Source of the DNA: a bacterium
GTDB lineage: Bacteria; Zhuqueibacterota; Zhuqueibacteria; Zhuqueibacterales; Geothermadaptataceae
Reading direction: 5' to 3'
NCBI GenBank assembly: GCA_024275575.1
Contig: JAJRYV010000105.1
Coordinates: forward strand, 1-64,000
Length of the DNA: 64,000 bases
The notes beneath the pieces were generated by a model. That model was not told the origin of the DNA. It made no database searches and saw only the letters and a list, made by a program, of their open reading frames with translations. Positions 2,927-55,593 of the stretch are shown here, piece by piece (the stretch's first letter is position 1; each line of letters starts with the position of its first letter). The translations under genes were made by a program, and so were the position numbers.

Positions 2927-3973
2927 TTAAAATCCAAAGATCAGACTGAAAACATTGTTTGAATCGAAGAATTCAACCTGACGAAAGGCATAGTCTAAGC
3001 GAACATCGACGTTGTTGATGTTATACTGCAGACCACCGCCAAGAGTCAAGCCGTAGTTGTAAGCATTGTTATCGTTAAGATCGGTTGCATCGGGTGAAAG
3101 TGAATAACCGGCTCTCAGGAATGCTTTATTATCGAAGGAATATTCAACACCGAATTTAGCAATATCAGCGAGAAAGCTTTGATCCTGATACATGCTGGAG
3201 AAATCAACTGAACTTTTCTCATCGATTTTCATCGTATAGTTCAGGCCGATTTCGAAGGATGTTGGTAATTCATCCGCCTGTGTAACGATTTCCGTTGGCG
3301 AGGTCGAACGGTCGCCATCAAGCAAATCAGTCTGACGAATGAGGCCGCTGCCGCCGAAGCGCATACTCTGGCCAACATTTTTCACTGCAATGCCAAGGCT
3401 CAAGCCGTCAATTTGACCGACGCCGCGATATTGCACACCAAAATCGAATGCCATACCAGAGGCTTTTACACGGTCCATCGTTTCAGAAACGACGTTTGCG
3501 GTTGCACCAACATAAACACGATCGCTCAAAGCTTTCGAGAAGGTCATACCGATTGTCAGAAATTGCGGGCTAAAGGTTGCGCCGGTGCCATCAGGGTTGT
3601 CAACGGTGGTGATGTTGACTTCGCCAAGGTTAAGCGATTTGACAGCAAACGCAAGCGAACCAAAGCCTTCGAAATTAACACTGGCAGCGGCATAAGTTAC
3701 GTCGATATCAGCGATATAGCTCATTTGTGAAAACATACCATACGCAGTTTTATCGGAAGATGCTAAACCAGCCGGATTGTAGTAGACAGCGTCGATTCCA
3801 CTTACGACAGCAAGCGGAGCGCCACCCATCCCGATATACCGGGCACCGACAGGGATCAACAATTCCGAAGCAGCGTTGGTACCTGTTCGAGCTTCCTGGG
3901 CAAACCCGTTTACGCTCACCAAAAGCAGGAGCGCAACCAAGATGACCATGAATCTATTTAAAGAGTGCTTCAT
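2927..3973 (-). CDS. PorV/PorQ family outer-membrane barrel protein (UPF0164)
   Basis: A 348-residue protein with a signal peptide (cleavage near GFAQ, about residue 25) followed by the family's N-terminal pattern: VGARYIGMGGA, then DAVYYNPAGLA. The remainder is alternating beta strands ending in an aromatic residue (SLIFGF), as in outer-membrane barrels. In Bacteroidetes, PorV shuttles type IX secretion cargo to the attachment complex and PorQ/PorV relatives bind secreted substrates. The neighbour encodes a large protein with a sorting-type C-terminus, so a cargo-handling role is plausible here. An AGGAG ribosome site supports the start. No T9SS core genes are in the window. Confidence 0.88.
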   Translation of the reverse strand: MKHSLNRFMVILVALLLLVSVNGFAQEARTGTNAASELLIPVGARYIGMGGAPLAVVSGIDAVYYNPAGLASSDKTAYGMFSQMSYIADIDVTYAAASVNFEGFGSLAFAVKSLNLGEVNITTVDNPDGTGATFSPQFLTIGMTFSKALSDRVYVGATANVVSETMDRVKASGMAFDFGVQYRGVGQIDGLSLGIAVKNVGQSMRFGGSGLIRQTDLLDGDRSTSPTEIVTQADELPTSFEIGLNYTMKIDEKSSVDFSSMYQDQSFLADIAKFGVEYSFDNKAFLRAGYSLSPDATDLNDNNAYNYGLTLGGGLQYNINNVDVRLDYAFRQVEFFDSNNVFSLIFGF

Positions 3974-4063
3974 AGTTTTTGACTCCTAATAATTGACCAT
4001 TACTTAATTGTTTTATGTCGCTTGGCCGGTCATACAAAAATGAGACCGCCAAACAGGTATCCA

Positions 4064-7000
4064 TTAATAGCTGTCGAGGAATTGCTGTTCCATAACAACG
4101 GCAACTTTTAATATCCTGCTGCCCATGTTCGGCACTTCGACGCTAACGAGATACATTCCACTGGCGATTGGCAAGCCGGATTCGTTATTCAGATCCCAGG
4201 CCAGGAATTGTGAATCATCGTTTTTCTCGAACGTGCGTACAAGCACACCTGCGAGATTGAAGATACGTAATGTGCATTGAGCCGGTAAATGACTGAATGT
4301 CACACTGCGCTGGAAACGATTCTGTTCAAATTCGTGCAGGCCGTAATATGGATTCGGGAATGCAGTAATGAGATCCATATCAGCTTTTGCAGCATCAACT
4401 GTGGTCGTCGGATTCAAACCGGCAGTTGAGAATGTGAACACATCAGAAGCTGTATTTGGTTTGGTTGAGAAAATACGGATCACACTGCCGGATGCTGGAG
4501 GTAAACCGTTTTGGTCGAAATCACAGACGAGCAGACGACCGATAACTTCGTTACTGGTATGGTCTGCAGTCACGCCACCGTTAGCTTCGATATCACTTGC
4601 ATAATCAGCGTATGTTTCTCCATCAGCAGGGTTGTACCAATAGATCCGGTCAAATGCCGGATAACCAAAAGCACCATCAGGACCGTGATCCGGGGTATAG
4701 GCGCCAGAAGTCCCGCCGCCTTCGTACATAATCGGAATCATTTGATAATCATCACTGGCATCGTCTGGTGTGCCCATACCGATATTCCAGAGTTCGAATG
4801 GAACCGCGCCGGTAACGCCGGAAGTGAAAGCCCACCAGCCGTAACCGCCGGCTTCGGTAAAACGCAGTTCAAAATCCCACGGTACGAGCGCAGCAAAATT
4901 GGTACGCATACCGGAGATATCGGATGTTGTTGTGCTGATAAAATAGCGATCAGAAAAACCGCCGGCATTCAAACTGTGCCACACATTATTACCGCCGAAT
5001 GGCGCACCGTTGCCGTCAAACAGGTCTTCAGTCAAAGGACCGGCTTCGTTGGCAACTTCGATAAATGCCGGGCCGCCGTTGGCCATGCGGGCATAATCAC
5101 TCGGGGCACCAAAGACTTTAACCATGATACCATCGACGATGAGATAGGCATCATCACCGGTTTGGTTGGTCTGGCCGGTCAATACAGCCGCGCCGGTTGT
5201 GGTATTGGTCAGGTCCCAAACATCCTGTGTTTCATAAACCGGATGCTCAGGATCAGTCATATCCACTGAAACCGTATCAACGCGGAAAGTCACTTTGTAG
5301 TCATTTCCGGTTACTTTGGTCGGGTCGATAACGGTCACTTCGATGAAGCCATCGCTCTGACCTTCATGTGTAGCGCCTTCAACCATATCGCCGATTGCAG
5401 CCTGCAGACGACCGCCCGGTTTGGTTGTTTGTGGAACAACAGTAATGATTGACAACGGGCTTTCCAGAGTTTTGACCACTTCACTACCATTGTAGTTATA
5501 GGCGGAAATACCGAAGTAATAAACCTGGCCATTAAGCAGGGGTTTGTCCCGAATCAGGTCTTTTGTAAAAACCTGACTGTGGATGATGCCGCTGTTGGAA
5601 CCAAACTGAACCGGCAGTTCAAGCACGAGACCGGAGGTTTCATCAAAAGCATCCTGAGAAATAACCGTAGCTTCGTTGATCAGGTCATAAGTTGCGAGAC
5701 GTATGCCTTGCGACTGGCTGGCGCCGGCGGAAGGCAACTGATAAATATTATAACCTTCGAACTGGTAACCTTTGTTTTTATGTGTTTCTGTTGTTGTTAC
5801 ACCAATGGGATTGTCGCCCCAGTTCAACAGAATCTTGCCGTCCAGCGCCGTACCGGTTACTTTCGGTGCAGGTGGTGGTTTCGGCAGGTCAAACAGGTTA
5901 TCAAAGGCAAACTGAGCAGATTTATCATAGAATTTCAAAGCAGCAACTGAAGAGAGACGATCGGAACCGAGTGCACCCATTACAGCAACAACCACTTCCT
6001 GGGTATCGGTCACGGCCATTTGGAAAGGACCGGAAACCAGCAGAATACGACGGTCGCCGGGGTTCTCATCAATCCAGTTGTTTGCTGAAGGTGTACCACC
6101 GAGGTCTTCGCCGGGAACGCGGAACATGGTGACTTCACCTGAGTATTTATTGGTCCATGGTTCAGCAGGGGATTCGGGGCGCGGGCGGAAACCGCGCAGC
6201 AGGTTCCACCATTGCAATGTGCCGTTATAGTTACCACCGCGCTCGGGGTCGCTATCTTCGCCACCGGCTGCAAAGAAGGCAAAACTGGTCATGGGCAGGT
6301 TTCTCCAGCCCGGACGTTCTTTGAGACCGAAAATAGCAACGCCTTCAGGGTCTTCAACCAGCGGGCCGGCGAAGAAGTCATAACCGCTCGCAGGCGGTGC
6401 CAGACCGGCTTTTGAATAAGTCGCATCAGTTGAGCTGGAATTATAAGCAAAACCGAGACTCAAAGTTGTATCGCAACCGGCGTAGTCATCACCGAAAGAA
6501 CCGAGATCAGGATCAGACCACTGGCAAAAATACATGGAATCGATAGTTGCATTAATCGGCGTCGTATCCGTTCCTTTATAAATAACACGGAAATTTTTGA
6601 AGATGATGTTACCCATAGCGTCGGAACGCGCATAGGCCCACATCAACGCCTGCATTTCCATACCGATGGCGGGCGAACCGTAGAGTGTTTGAACAGCGCC
6701 GGCATCGAGGTCATTGGCAACGAGCCATGCAACCATATCGGCATCGGCAATACCCGGTTCATCTGCGTGTTTTGCTGCATCGAATTCTTCGCCGACGCCG
6801 GGACGGGTTTTGGGTTTTTCAAGACCGTCTTCAGGATCGATCCAGAAGCCCGGGGTGTAAACACCATCGCCATCGACATCATAGAATGGCGCGCCTTTTC
6901 CGGCAGGCCAGTCGATCCAGTCCTGTCTGTATAATTTGCGCAGTGCTTCAATTTCTCCATCAGTAATCGAAGATGCGCTGACCTGAAAAAACTCGGCAGC

Positions 7001-7486
7001 GTCTTGCCGCAGGTTGGCCGTTGGATAATCCCGGCGAATCCGCCAGACACGGTCAACATCTAAATCAGTCTGTTCTTCAGCGACGCCGGGGCTGAGAATA
7101 GCGCCGGGAACCGTACCACTACTATAAGTCTGGCCGCCAACGCGTAATGCCGGTGTGCCGCCATCATTGACAATACCACCCCAAACCATACCGTCGGCAT
7201 AAATAACGGCGGTATTCGGGTTGGAACCACGAGGATAATACAATCCGGAATCACCACGGGGATCGATAGCAGATATACCATCTGAATAGATCCACATCGC
7301 AACTTGTCCAACATTAACAAGTGTTCTGTTTGTCCGAGGTTTATTGTCATCCTGCAGGACCACATTGCCTCTCGAACGTTTATCAAGAGTAACCTTTCCA
7401 TCGGCTTCTGCACCAAATGCGATTCCGCTCAGCAGAAACGTGCACACAGCCGTTGTTAGAAAGATTTTACTTAAAGTTCTCTTCAT
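4064..7486 (-). CDS. Large secreted protein with C-terminal sorting (T9SS/FlgD-like) domain
   Basis: An 1140-residue protein with a signal peptide (residues 1-25, ending GIAFG). A fibronectin-like strand segment near residues 535-570 contains ILLNWGDNP. The C-terminal 90 residues match the FlgD-Ig/type-IX sorting style: FPNPYYG, then LRIFNLAGVLVRTF, WDLNNESGLPIASGMYLV and a final basic/hydrophobic strand. The central part has many Asp/Gly loops and no enzyme motif I recognise. It sits between the TonB receptor and the PorV-like barrel genes, each with its own GGGAG/AGGAG site. It is likely surface-exposed cargo of that cluster. Its exact function is unknown. Confidence 0.85.
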   Translation of the reverse strand: MKRTLSKIFLTTAVCTFLLSGIAFGAEADGKVTLDKRSRGNVVLQDDNKPRTNRTLVNVGQVAMWIYSDGISAIDPRGDSGLYYPRGSNPNTAVIYADGMVWGGIVNDGGTPALRVGGQTYSSGTVPGAILSPGVAEEQTDLDVDRVWRIRRDYPTANLRQDAAEFFQVSASSITDGEIEALRKLYRQDWIDWPAGKGAPFYDVDGDGVYTPGFWIDPEDGLEKPKTRPGVGEEFDAAKHADEPGIADADMVAWLVANDLDAGAVQTLYGSPAIGMEMQALMWAYARSDAMGNIIFKNFRVIYKGTDTTPINATIDSMYFCQWSDPDLGSFGDDYAGCDTTLSLGFAYNSSSTDATYSKAGLAPPASGYDFFAGPLVEDPEGVAIFGLKERPGWRNLPMTSFAFFAAGGEDSDPERGGNYNGTLQWWNLLRGFRPRPESPAEPWTNKYSGEVTMFRVPGEDLGGTPSANNWIDENPGDRRILLVSGPFQMAVTDTQEVVVAVMGALGSDRLSSVAALKFYDKSAQFAFDNLFDLPKPPPAPKVTGTALDGKILLNWGDNPIGVTTTETHKNKGYQFEGYNIYQLPSAGASQSQGIRLATYDLINEATVISQDAFDETSGLVLELPVQFGSNSGIIHSQVFTKDLIRDKPLLNGQVYYFGISAYNYNGSEVVKTLESPLSIITVVPQTTKPGGRLQAAIGDMVEGATHEGQSDGFIEVTVIDPTKVTGNDYKVTFRVDTVSVDMTDPEHPVYETQDVWDLTNTTTGAAVLTGQTNQTGDDAYLIVDGIMVKVFGAPSDYARMANGGPAFIEVANEAGPLTEDLFDGNGAPFGGNNVWHSLNAGGFSDRYFISTTTSDISGMRTNFAALVPWDFELRFTEAGGYGWWAFTSGVTGAVPFELWNIGMGTPDDASDDYQMIPIMYEGGGTSGAYTPDHGPDGAFGYPAFDRIYWYNPADGETYADYASDIEANGGVTADHTSNEVIGRLLVCDFDQNGLPPASGSVIRIFSTKPNTASDVFTFSTAGLNPTTTVDAAKADMDLITAFPNPYYGLHEFEQNRFQRSVTFSHLPAQCTLRIFNLAGVLVRTFEKNDDSQFLAWDLNNESGLPIASGMYLVSVEVPNMGSRILKVAVVMEQQFLDSY

Positions 7487-50648: not shown

Positions 50649-53540
50649 ATGCAAAAAGGATTTTTTGAAACCCCGCAGCTTATAAAAAACGCCCGTAAGG
50701 GTGCAGCTTTGGCCATGTTGTTTTTTATAGCGCAAGGCCTCGTTTTGGGGCAGAATCCGGAATGGCAGGACGGCAATCCACTTTTTACCCGGATTGATTC
50801 CAGCCGCTCAGTCGTTGTCGACAGCACCATCAGATTGAGCAGCATCAATACGACTGACACCAACTCGGAAACCATGGTGCAAATTCTCCAGGGTGGTTTG
50901 GGCCATATCGACACCGTTAATCTCGGCGCCGTACAGAATCCGCTCGATTTCAACAAAGTGCCCATTCCCAACACCGATATTTTTCTGGTGACGGACGCCT
51001 TTTCACGCAAAGTTTACACCATCAACTCCGTGACCAAAAAAGTCGTCAGCACCTTTGGTTCCGATTTTGTTGACGATCCTGATTATCTACTCGCGCCGGT
51101 AAAAGCCCGCGCCTTCGACGGCAGCCCGGCAAACACTTTCGACGGCATGCTGGTGACCGATGGCGGCAACGACAAAGTGTTAATGTTTAACTATGTTGAC
51201 GGTTCTCTTGTCTGGACCTTTGAGCAGGGTTTAAATGAACCTGCAGCAGCCATCACGATCATCGACAGTTCCCGGGTCATCATTTGCGACAAAGGCAATT
51301 CACGCATCATTTTTCTCTCTCTGCAAGCTGATTCGGCCGTATTTTTCAAATCAGGCGGTGAAGCGATACTCGCTGAACCTGTCGATGTCGAATACCGGCC
51401 AGGGGAACTCCTGGTGACCGACAAGGCCCGGCATGTGGTTTATATTTTGGATGAAAATGATTTTAGCGTGAAGCAACAATTTGGCGAAGATAATGTCCCC
51501 AGCATTGATGTCACCCACCTGCGGGAACCTGTCGATGCCCAATTTCTCAACAACGGCAATGTATTGATCGCCGACGCCGGCAATAACCGTGTCATTGAAG
51601 TAAACATGGCGCAGCAGCAGATCGTTTGGGAATTTACCCCGCGGGTAAATAAAATGTTCTCGGCGACACGCCTTGATAATGATGAAATGCTGGTCATCAG
51701 CGACCGCGATGTGCTGGTGCTGGGCTACAAAACCCGCAATTATATTTTAGGGAAAGAGCGCGGTCTCGGCCGTGCTGTAAATTTCGATTCACTCACGTTT
51801 AACGCCGTCATCGAAGACGGCACCAATTTGCGTTTTCAAATACGTACGGCGACAATTTTAGCCGATTTGGAGGCTGCCGAGTGGATTGGACCAATCGGGC
51901 CGGATTCATGGTATGAAAATAATTATCTTATCAATCCGCTGCATGATGGCGACCGTTTTTATCAGGTACGGGCGGAATTGCAAACGGATAATCCCTTGCG
52001 CACTGTACGGCTCAACAGCCTCAATTTGCACTATCATTATTTTGACACCGAAAATGTTGGCCGGGCACTTACAACGGTCATCGCAGACACGACGGCGAGC
52101 TCGATCACCAACTGGCAAAAAATCAGCGGTACCACGATCCTGCCACCCAACCCGGCTGACCGCGATGAAATCAGCCTGGTGATCAATGTCATCGATGCTG
52201 ATACCGGTGACCGCGTACACAGCTTTTCAGTCAGCGATCAGGAGAGCAGTTTTGAAAACGTGCTGACCAATATCTCGGCACTGGCAACAGTAAATCGTAT
52301 CCGTCTCGAGGCGCTTTTCAATACCAACAACACCTCTGTTTCCCCCATCCTCGAGGATTGGGCAGTAGACTGGGAAAGTGTCGAATCTTCGCCATCGACG
52401 ATCAAGTTTGTCGACAGTCAAAATGTCCGCGATGTGGAGGTTGTTCGTCTTAAATCCGATACCGACAACGGCGAACCCAACGCCATTTTTGTTTCCCTCA
52501 CCGATGCCAATTTAGGCCGGCGAAACATTGCAAAATTTAAAGTAGAGTTGCACGCGCTGCAAAGCGGTGATACGGATTCGCTGGAACTGAACCGTCTGGG
52601 TGGCTCACCCGAATATTTTTCGGTCTCCGGCATACCGGGATTTATCCGTCAGGCAATCGGTACCAATAACGGAGTGATGGAATTACACGACCGCGATATC
52701 CTGATCGTGCGCTACACCGACCCGGTCGATCCCTCGGACATTTCAGCCGATTCAATACTTGTCGTCGAGCGCACCCGGGCTGTCTTGACCGTTGAAACCC
52801 AGACCGGGCCGGTAACGGAAAACCAGAAAATTCGTACAATCGATTCTCTTTATTTGCATATCACCAACGAAAATGATCACGATCTATCACCGGCGCGGGA
52901 CAGTATTTTTGCCGAAATAATCGATGCGCGAACGAATGACCTGGAAACGATCACACTATTCGAAGTGCCGAATACAAGTGGCGGTACGGTTTATTCAACG
53001 GGTGAATTTTATAGTTTGCAGGGGATTAACATCGTCACGGGGCAAGCGGCGCGAAGAGAGAACGGCCGTCTCGAAACCTTGGCCGGCAATCAGTTCGTCG
53101 CCCAATATCTCGATCTCGATACCGCTATTGTTTTTCTCGACATGATCGGTACACCGGTCGGCGGGGAGCCTGTTGAAGGACCCGGAGCGATCAATTTGAA
53201 ATTCGCCCCGAATCCTTATAAAGTGAGCTCCGGCGAGACTATGCGCATGCGCATCGAAGCCTATACCGGCAGCCTGAGTCTGCATAAAATAGAAATTTAT
53301 AACCTCGCAGGCGAACCCGTACGAGTCATCAACGCCGGTGATCTAAATCTCGATCGCGGCCCCAACATCAGCAAGGAAACCCGCTCAACCACCCAGGGAC
53401 GGTGGTGGGATTTTACCAACGACAGCGGAGTTCAGGTTGGCAGCGGCACCTATTTCGCCCGGCTTGTGGGTTCATTCACCGATGAACTCGGACAGACCGA
53501 ACGAGTGACATTCCTCAGAAAATTCGTGATTGTGCGCTAA
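50649..53540 (+). CDS. Secreted beta-propeller (NHL-like) protein with FlgD-like C-terminus
   Basis: A 963-residue exported protein. The signal segment is about residues 18-35. Residues about 90-370 contain repeats of the NHL/beta-propeller type (MLVTDGGNDKVLMFNY, VIICDKGNSRIIFL, LLVTDKARHVVYIL, NVLIADAGNNRVIEV). Mid-protein is beta-sandwich-rich. The last 110 residues (FAPNPYKVSSGE, KIEIYNLAGEPVRVI, VGSGTYFARLVG) resemble a FlgD-Ig/sorting domain. It precedes the barrel-OmpA-AMIN fusion by 20 bp on the same strand, so the two proteins are probably made together and act at the outer membrane. The ligand is unknown. Confidence 0.85.
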   Translation: MQKGFFETPQLIKNARKGAALAMLFFIAQGLVLGQNPEWQDGNPLFTRIDSSRSVVVDSTIRLSSINTTDTNSETMVQILQGGLGHIDTVNLGAVQNPLDFNKVPIPNTDIFLVTDAFSRKVYTINSVTKKVVSTFGSDFVDDPDYLLAPVKARAFDGSPANTFDGMLVTDGGNDKVLMFNYVDGSLVWTFEQGLNEPAAAITIIDSSRVIICDKGNSRIIFLSLQADSAVFFKSGGEAILAEPVDVEYRPGELLVTDKARHVVYILDENDFSVKQQFGEDNVPSIDVTHLREPVDAQFLNNGNVLIADAGNNRVIEVNMAQQQIVWEFTPRVNKMFSATRLDNDEMLVISDRDVLVLGYKTRNYILGKERGLGRAVNFDSLTFNAVIEDGTNLRFQIRTATILADLEAAEWIGPIGPDSWYENNYLINPLHDGDRFYQVRAELQTDNPLRTVRLNSLNLHYHYFDTENVGRALTTVIADTTASSITNWQKISGTTILPPNPADRDEISLVINVIDADTGDRVHSFSVSDQESSFENVLTNISALATVNRIRLEALFNTNNTSVSPILEDWAVDWESVESSPSTIKFVDSQNVRDVEVVRLKSDTDNGEPNAIFVSLTDANLGRRNIAKFKVELHALQSGDTDSLELNRLGGSPEYFSVSGIPGFIRQAIGTNNGVMELHDRDILIVRYTDPVDPSDISADSILVVERTRAVLTVETQTGPVTENQKIRTIDSLYLHITNENDHDLSPARDSIFAEIIDARTNDLETITLFEVPNTSGGTVYSTGEFYSLQGINIVTGQAARRENGRLETLAGNQFVAQYLDLDTAIVFLDMIGTPVGGEPVEGPGAINLKFAPNPYKVSSGETMRMRIEAYTGSLSLHKIEIYNLAGEPVRVINAGDLNLDRGPNISKETRSTTQGRWWDFTNDSGVQVGSGTYFARLVGSFTDELGQTERVTFLRKFVIVR

Positions 53541-53560
53541 ATGACCAGCAAAGGATTATC

Positions 53561-55486
53561 ATGAACTGGAAAGAAAACGATATTTACAGATATAAAAATT
53601 GGCTGATAAATGGCCGCGTTCTGCTCTTCCTTTGCGGCCTGCTCTTTTTTCTGCAGGAAACTGCCAGCGCACAGGTGCCTTTTTTACGCATTAGCCCCAA
53701 TGCGCGCCAGGTGGGCATGGGCGAAGCTTTTACCGGCATGGCCAATGATTATAATCTGTTGCGTTACAACGTCGGCGGACTCGGTCTCTTGCGCAAAGCC
53801 AAGCTGGCCACCAATTTCCACAACTGGATCGGCGATACACGCCAGGGTGATTTTGAATTTTCGATCCCTTTGTTCTGGGGTGTTGGCGCTTTTGGTGTGA
53901 CCTATTTCAGCCATGGGGATCTCCAGGATTTAAATGCTGATTTTGAAAAACTGGCGACGACGACATCATCGAACGACATTATGCTTTCGTTCGGTTACGG
54001 CATGGAAACCAACGTGTTTAATCGCAAACTCTCGTTCGGCGCCGGCAGCAAACTGATCCGTCAGGACCTCGCCGGTGAATCAGCAAGCGCCATCGGCGTC
54101 GATGTCGGTGCTATTTATCAGCTCAAATACCTGTCTTTCGGCGCTACATTGCAGAATTTTACCGTCACCAAACTCAAGTTTATCGAACGGGCAGAATTAT
54201 TGCCGGAAACCATTCGCGGCGGCATCGGCATTCGCCTTCCTTTCGGCAAAAAATACCGCTGGAACATCGCCGCAGATATTGCCAAAGTGAGGGCGGAAAA
54301 AGATTTGCGCTATTACACCGGTACGGAAATCGATTTCGGCAAAACCCTGAAAGTACGCGCCGGTTATAAATGGCACGATTTTGAAGCCTCGCGCTGGGCT
54401 GCCGGTTTCGGCCTGAAAATGCCGATGGAATGGCTTTCCAACGCCAGCACGGAAATCGATTATGCCTTTTCACCGTTAGATAATTTTGACCAATTCGCGC
54501 ACCGGTTTTCAGTGACATTTACTTTCAACAACCTGACGCCACGACGTATCCCTATCGATTCCGGAAGGTTGACCTTGCTCGAGCGGCAACTGGCCGATGA
54601 ACTGGTAGCGATCCAGGATGCACGCCAGCGGGCGGAAGATTCCGAAGAACGGACACGGGCACTGGAAGACGAGATGAAAAAGCGCCTGGAATACATCAAA
54701 CAAATCGCGTTGACCTCGCAGGGGAAAATTGAAATCAGCGCTGACAGCAGCACCGCAGACGGAAAATACAGCCAGATACACATGTCCCTGCGCATCAATT
54801 TTGACTTCGATAGTGCGGAAATTCAACCGGCACAATCGAGCACGATGGAAAAAGTTGCAGATATTCTTAACACTTATCCCAATTCAAAAGTCTGGATCTC
54901 CGGGCATACGGACAATGTCGGTTCGGCTTTTTATAATATGGGTCTATCGATGCGACGCATGGGTTCCGTTCAGTCATACCTCACTGATCACGGCGTCAAC
55001 GGCAGCCGCTTTTTTATGCCGGTGCCCTACGGTGAAGACCGGCCGGTGGCGACTAATGCCACAGCGGCAGGTCGTGAACGCAACCGCCGGGTGGATTTTA
55101 CCATTTTTGCCTTTGAAAAGACACCGGCTATCCCCGACGGCTCGCTGGTGCGCAATGTGGAAGCTTTTAACGATTCCACTTTCGCGATTATCTGCAACGG
55201 CAAAGTACCGTTTGAAACGGATGAATACCGGAACCCGCCCCGCCTGTCAATCGATTTACCGGGAATTTACTACCTGCGCAATATGGCAACGAATGATACT
55301 TTCGAAATCAACAGAGGCGTGGTCAAACGCGCCCGTATCGCTTATCACGAGGAAGGATTTACGCGTGTCGTATTTGACCTTATCAAAGCAACACCATACA
55401 GTGCACGCCAGGTGGACGAAGCGGTGATTGTCAGTTTCGGGCGATCTGGCGGGACGCAACCCTCCGGGATAACCGAGAAAAATTAA
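53561..55486 (+). CDS. PorV-like barrel fused to OmpA and AMIN domains
   Basis: A 641-residue protein with three recognisable parts. After a signal segment (about 15-38), residues 40-330 have the PorV/UPF0164 pattern (LRISPNARQVGMGEAFTG, then strand repeats). A coiled coil rich in Glu/Arg follows (about 340-385). Residues about 410-525 are an OmpA C-terminal domain with the peptidoglycan-binding signature (SGHTDNVG, GRERNRRVDF). Residues about 540-635 resemble an AMIN domain (FEINRGVVKRARIAYHEEG), which binds envelope polymers or amidases. Such a chain would tether a substrate-handling barrel to peptidoglycan. It is 20 bp after the propeller gene. Confidence 0.85.
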   Translation: MNWKENDIYRYKNWLINGRVLLFLCGLLFFLQETASAQVPFLRISPNARQVGMGEAFTGMANDYNLLRYNVGGLGLLRKAKLATNFHNWIGDTRQGDFEFSIPLFWGVGAFGVTYFSHGDLQDLNADFEKLATTTSSNDIMLSFGYGMETNVFNRKLSFGAGSKLIRQDLAGESASAIGVDVGAIYQLKYLSFGATLQNFTVTKLKFIERAELLPETIRGGIGIRLPFGKKYRWNIAADIAKVRAEKDLRYYTGTEIDFGKTLKVRAGYKWHDFEASRWAAGFGLKMPMEWLSNASTEIDYAFSPLDNFDQFAHRFSVTFTFNNLTPRRIPIDSGRLTLLERQLADELVAIQDARQRAEDSEERTRALEDEMKKRLEYIKQIALTSQGKIEISADSSTADGKYSQIHMSLRINFDFDSAEIQPAQSSTMEKVADILNTYPNSKVWISGHTDNVGSAFYNMGLSMRRMGSVQSYLTDHGVNGSRFFMPVPYGEDRPVATNATAAGRERNRRVDFTIFAFEKTPAIPDGSLVRNVEAFNDSTFAIICNGKVPFETDEYRNPPRLSIDLPGIYYLRNMATNDTFEINRGVVKRARIAYHEEGFTRVVFDLIKATPYSARQVDEAVIVSFGRSGGTQPSGITEKN

Positions 55487-55563: not shown

Positions 55564-55593
55564 GATATTGGGGTAAAAAGTTACCCCAATATC
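55564..55593. terminator. Strong inverted repeat overlapping the arginase stop
   Basis: A perfect 13-bp inverted repeat GATATTGGGGTAA / TTACCCCAATATC (55564-55576 and 55581-55593) has a 4-base loop. The downstream arm includes the arginase stop codon. It lies between convergent genes, and transcription termination or mRNA 3' protection is likely, though the flanking T-run is weak. Confidence 0.65.

Follow-up and report, generated by a model that had tools for sequence, protein, structure and literature searches.

The window analysed here, a 64,000-nucleotide stretch of a Calditrichota contig, carries two adjacent genes on its forward strand (+), which also holds all features below unless noted. 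The first (50649..53540) encodes a 963-residue secreted protein with an NHL-type β-propeller, and the second (53561..55486) encodes a 641-residue multidomain protein, hereafter the fusion, whose ATG start codon lies 20 bases beyond the end of the propeller gene. A Shine-Dalgarno-like AAAGGA (53550..53555) can be read five bases ahead of this ATG. Downstream of the pair, a pattern scan picks out a terminator-like hairpin followed by a T-run (55564..55593), a weak call given that shuffled sequences are about equally rich in such sites. The first-pass annotation had read the 641-residue chain as a PorV-like barrel, a charged coiled coil, an OmpA domain and a C-terminal AMIN domain, and profile searches together with an alignment of 25 full-length homologues confirm both the reading frame and its domain order.

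The fusion begins with a signal-peptide-like segment (residues 1–38, 53561..53674), in which a hydrophobic core is followed by ASA-Q, and continues into a PorV/PorQ-family outer-membrane barrel (residues 39–324, 53675..54532). The barrel, placed at residues 40–330 in the first-pass annotation, matches the NCBIfam PorV family model NF033709 with 131.9 bits over residues 37–322, above the curated cut-off of 90, and a profile built from the 25 fusion homologues matches the solved T9SS PorV structure (6h3i, chain F; E = 2.4e-8). Pfam UPF0164 matches 13 of the 25 homologues, the window’s own fusion not being among them. A charged helical linker (residues ~334–385, 54560..54715), retained in the homologues and corresponding to the coiled coil, leads into the OmpA domain, a probable peptidoglycan anchor (residues 405–518, 54773..55114), which matches PF00691 with 75.6 bits over residues 414–509 and is matched in all 25 homologues. 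The HTDN and RRVDF residues noticed at the outset overlap its conserved ligand-motif residues: G448, H449, T450, N459, L462, S463, R466, N508, R509, R510 and V511 are invariant in 25/25, and D451 is an aspartate in 23 and a cysteine in two. These two (L030 and L024) come from one family and carry GHTC in place of GHTD. With a mean pairwise identity of 63%, compared to 50% for the barrel, the OmpA domain is the best-conserved part of the fusion. The AMIN domain (residues 543–626, 55187..55438) matches PF11741 over residues 545–619 with 24.6 bits, above the gathering score of 20.5, and is matched in 25/25 homologues at E ≤ 0.01 (best E 7e-11). The genome yielded no other AMIN domain, and in searches of 82 genomes the AMIN tail turned up solely as part of the fusion, never as a protein lacking the barrel. 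Because AMIN domains have protein-positioning roles in other systems, this one need not bind the cell wall. The one close relative returned by a contig scan, and the nearest with a name, is ‘Calditrichaeota bacterium isolate CLD2 2’, whose fusion is 81% identical. AlphaFold models from two-sequence alignments, with a mean pLDDT of 32 for the fusion and 34 for the propeller protein, were left unused.

Membership of the broad PorV/PorQ family does not extend to any of its characterized branches. The fusion scores 51.6 bits against T9SS PorV (NF033710, equivalog cut-off 250), 61.9 bits against T9SS PorQ (NF033711, equivalog cut-off 220), and 30.3 and 18.3 bits against the two PorP/SprF models (TIGR03519, cut-off 90.55; PF11751, cut-off 22.3). 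The PorE model NF052230 is matched with 57.1 bits by the OmpA part alone (residues 412–500), far from its full-length cut-off of 600. We therefore do not regard the fusion as an ortholog of PorV, PorQ, PorP or PorE, each of these scores lying below its cut-off.

The upstream protein has a signal-peptide-like start and a propeller region at residues ~85–370 (50901..51758) with NHL/PQQ matches; NHL is present in 26/26 propeller homologues, and their profile matches NHL and Pizza propeller structures in the PDB. Its identification as a secreted propeller 20 bp upstream of the fusion was thus correct, while the description of its end as FlgD-like has to be replaced. FlgD_ig stays below its cut-off (15.4 bits), and an HMM trained on 40 T9SS C-terminal domains (CTDs) of the same genome, all canonical and of type A, hits every one of the 26 aligned propeller-homologue tails (E 3e-9 to 3e-3). 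In hhalign, these tails align to the CTD profile over nearly the whole domain with a probability of 98.3% (E 1.5e-14), whereas another region of the same proteins, used as a control, reaches 0.3%. The CTD part of the NCBIfam PorU model is also weakly matched by nine of ten propeller-homologue tails. The general CTD model TIGR04183 is not reached at its cut-off by the window’s protein, and the best homologue falls just short of it (22.6 versus 23). From these profile comparisons, the end of the propeller protein (residues 846–963, 53184..53537) is a divergent T9SS sorting domain, type-A-like with longer loops and homologous to type A CTDs. What the first-pass annotation missed is the secretion system itself: the propeller ends in a sorting domain, and proteins of this kind are carried by the family of which the barrel is a member. 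The propeller protein is not a PorZ ortholog: PorZ matches the propeller domain of no homologue, and the CTDs of two of them weakly. Outside the cell, the propeller might serve in adhesion or ligand capture, which is a guess.

Several T9SS markers are present in the host genome. In Bacteroidota, SprA hands cargo to a barrel shuttle via the cargo’s CTD, and SprA_N is matched in 79 of the 82 Calditrichota genomes that we surveyed, the host genome included. The genome also encodes PorU (840 bits, cut-off 420), TIGR04183 gives 131 CTD matches, and core PorV is encoded by a separate gene, C15 (NF033710, 263.3 bits, cut-off 250). Two models for GldM/PorM found nothing in the host genome, the first of them being silent in every control genome as well. 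The Caldithrix abyssi genome paper reports that Bacteroidetes-type gliding machinery is absent (PMC5317091).

Of the three outcomes that the first-pass annotation had named in advance as refuting its proposal, none arose: the barrel match is strong, AMIN exceeds its curated cut-off and, in the survey, fusion and propeller gene stay together. The fusion occurs in 46 of the 82 genomes, in one copy each, spread over 11 families that all belong to the window’s class; two of these genomes show the match as two pieces lying in one frame. The propeller gene occurs in 44 genomes, each of which has the fusion, and match coordinates place the two genes side by side on the same strand in 43. Contig breaks account for the three fusion genomes without an adjoining propeller match: G039 has its better propeller match on another contig, while a propeller gene’s end lies directly upstream of the fusion (L014), in G078 the contig stops shortly before the fusion, and from G068 (67% complete) just the last part of the fusion was recovered. 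The p-value for this co-occurrence was computed without phylogenetic correction. Distances in the two protein trees are correlated (r = 0.84), a value that vertical inheritance alone would also give. Across 22 neighbourhoods of 14–20 kb, no unit other than the pair is always retained, and in about half of the genomes its surroundings are quite different. In about half of the genomes, the pair sits within a conserved gene run that includes a butyrate-kinase-like gene (L138, L139, L141, L144–L146, L149, L150, L153–L155), a run that is absent around the pair elsewhere. One pair, from a genome of another order (G025; L137, 5010–10195), groups with the window’s family in both gene trees (support 0.999 and 1.0), and the seven other genomes of G025’s family have no pair. 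Joint horizontal transfer of both genes is a possible reading of this placement; differential loss or assembly contamination may account for it instead.

The arrangement recurs within the host genome, which has 27 matches to the PorV family model. We inspected the gene directly upstream of the 20 stronger loci, the focal fusion included, and found that it ends in a CTD by the HMM at 16 of the 20 (15 of 19 without the focal pair), with a few of these tail scores weak (poorest E 0.008). Among other ORF tails in the same stretches, a control drawn from these neighbourhoods rather than from a random sample of the genome, 7 of ~120 carry a CTD, so that the association is strong even with the focal pair left out (Fisher p ~1e-11). 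The four barrels without an upstream CTD gene are core PorV (C15), a PorQ-like (C46) and a PorV2-like (C62) barrel, and C78. Several paired barrels carry extra C-terminal domains, namely CARDB and OmpA (C110), DUF11/CARDB and OmpA (C18), TPR (C52) or SH3 (C12). The first-pass annotation took barrel, OmpA and AMIN to be normally separate proteins. The joining of barrel and OmpA is not unique to the focal fusion: three more PorV-family barrels of this genome match OmpA, while the addition of AMIN is unique to the focal family in the phylum genomes searched. The four OmpA-bearing barrels, focal fusion included, form one clade (0.957) near core PorV (0.871), which suggests that the barrel-OmpA architecture probably arose once and then diversified, with AMIN joining it in the focal lineage.

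Starting from the observed domains, the pairing, the CTD homology and the T9SS markers of the genome, we propose that the fusion and the propeller protein form a dedicated T9SS cargo-and-anchor unit for static display of the propeller, a reading that we consider probable. The propeller protein would be exported by Sec and then pass the outer membrane through SprA by means of its C-terminal CTD, whereupon it would be taken over by the PorV-family barrel encoded beside it through CTD–barrel binding. On the periplasmic side, the OmpA domain, reinforced by AMIN, would bind peptidoglycan; the propeller would therefore be held in place on the cell surface, and the fusion, unlike core PorV, would neither diffuse freely nor recycle at the PorU sortase. 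One chain would thereby perform the work proposed in Bacteroidota for PorP/SprF, the barrel shuttle, together with PorE, the OmpA wall anchor. The first-pass annotation had pictured a device anchored in the wall that handles or displays the propeller protein; all of the genomic evidence is in line with this picture, as are published T9SS models (PMC9143113, PMC12618676), and we infer the binding, the peptidoglycan attachment and the display. Against the dedicated-shuttle reading, the propeller CTD is divergent and, in the window’s protein, under the TIGR04183 cut-off. The principle of cognate shuttles was established with PorP/SprF and type B CTDs rather than with PorV-type barrels, and in Bacteroidota barrels of the latter type handle all type A cargo (PMC5562754, PMC10994853).

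The closest parallels are the PorP–PorE–PG1035 system of Porphyromonas gingivalis, in which PorP binds both PG1035 and the OmpA-domain protein PorE (PMC9143113), and the operons of Flavobacterium johnsoniae that encode SprF-like barrels, PorE-like proteins and type B clients (PMC9143113, PMC12618676). PorP/SprF-like shuttles are specialised, their genes often lie with those of their type B clients, and they contribute to setting the client’s destination (PMC12618676); for PorE-linked clients, those with a PorE homologue in the operon, a static position on the wall is proposed (PMC9143113, PMC12618676). These systems share with the pair the joint encoding of a barrel shuttle, an OmpA wall anchor and a CTD client, as well as the proposed static display, and the fusion and propeller genes are likewise kept together as a putative cognate shuttle and client. 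In the Calditrichota pair, by contrast, shuttle and anchor are one chain with AMIN added, the barrel is of the PorV/PorQ family and the client CTD is type-A-like. PorE itself, whose OmpA domain has been co-crystallised with a fragment of peptidoglycan (PMC7192894), resembles the fusion in its OmpA domain as wall anchor of a T9SS barrel; the fusion differs from it in having no TPR and no periplasmic propeller and in not being a separate lipoprotein, the anchor being covalently part of the barrel chain. PorV (6h3i) is homologous to the fusion’s barrel and acts in Bacteroidota as the general, recycling shuttle for type A CTDs (PMC5562754, PMC10994853), whereas the fusion falls below the PorV equivalog cut-off, has periplasmic domains and is encoded with a probable cognate client.

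The strongest competing explanation likens the pair to PorQ and PorZ, with the propeller as a surface component of a sortase/attachment complex held on a PorQ-like barrel, such that the pair would serve all cargo instead of displaying a single client. PorQ anchors PorZ, which consists of β-propellers and a CTD, on the P. gingivalis surface (PMC5562754), so that the gross anatomy of propeller plus CTD on a PorV/PorQ-family barrel is the same; moreover, the fusion barrel scores higher with PorQ than with PorV, and the fusion is single copy and class-wide. The PorQ score is nevertheless far under its cut-off, a better PorQ candidate exists elsewhere in the genome (C46, 168.9 bits), the propeller is of the NHL rather than the PorZ type, and the pair is absent from 36 phylum genomes even though SprA is nearly universal in the phylum. 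We accordingly judge this explanation unlikely, if the best of the rivals. The pair also differs from PorQ and PorZ in the wall-binding domains fused to its barrel. Slightly less likely still is that the fusion is an OmpA-like envelope stabiliser, tethering the outer membrane to peptidoglycan through a barrel derived from PorV; the propeller gene would then simply share its regulation. The superior conservation of the OmpA domain and the single copy of the fusion would suit such a role, yet the propeller gene never occurs without the fusion and adjoins it even in unrelated surroundings, its product carries the CTD signal that PorV-type barrels read, and the same layout is found in 15 paralogous pairs that include barrels without wall domains. 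That the fusion is an ordinary recycling shuttle that brings its client to PorU for removal of the CTD, with OmpA and AMIN merely placing it, for example at the division site, is improbable: P. gingivalis PorV does recycle once cargo has passed to the sortase (PMC5562754), PorU is encoded in the host genome and AMIN has positioning roles elsewhere, but one dedicated barrel per client with a fused wall anchor suits a static complex better, and PorE-linked clients are static in F. johnsoniae (PMC12618676).

Each module of the fusion was already known, as was the principle of a cognate shuttle plus wall anchor. What is new, as far as we found in a survey of Calditrichota genomes, is the single-chain fusion, the pairing of a PorV-type barrel with a type-A-like client, the addition of AMIN, the broad conservation within one Calditrichota class and, beyond the pair, the larger group of one-client PorV paralogues; a literature search with most subscription journals outside its reach returned no paper on a PorV–OmpA fusion or on T9SS in Calditrichota. 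The Bacteroidota model of a PorP-type shuttle with a PorE-type anchor rests on pull-downs and operons, and the fusion of shuttle and wall anchor beside a probable cargo gene across 11 families provides independent evolutionary evidence for it, extending the model to PorV-type barrels and to Calditrichota. With just two genes, the pair is also a compact system for probing static anchoring, the specificity of CTDs and what AMIN does. More tentatively, and with less than even confidence, we suggest that the PorV family in Calditrichota diverged into a core shuttle that recycles and some fifteen one-client carriers, some of them permanently fused to wall-binding domains, such that type-A-like cargo would be displayed on wall-nailed barrels and not by sortase transfer, with the PorV–OmpA–AMIN/NHL-propeller pair as the class-wide conserved member.

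Some further loci of the host genome vary this layout. The window itself contains a second pair of CTD gene and PorV-family gene on the reverse strand (2927–7486, −), in which a 1140-residue CTD protein is followed by a plain 348-residue PorV-family barrel. The genes for the barrels with extra C-terminal domains (C52, C110, C18 and C12; L072, L073, L074 and L078) are each preceded by a CTD gene. C75 (L071:4679–8644), a large relative of the focal fusion that lies downstream of a CTD gene, encodes 1322 residues comprising a PorV-family barrel, an OmpA domain just below the cut-off and a Reg_prop propeller with weak resemblance to PorZ (24 bits). The PorV-family protein C39 (L080:3063–4307) itself ends in a match to the CTD profile (FlgD_ig 21 bits; CTD HMM E 1e-4), and its gene is preceded by a CTD gene. 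Finally, the PorV-family gene C116 (L085:3867–4856), beside a CTD gene, contains one in-frame TAG and is possibly a pseudogene or an assembly error.
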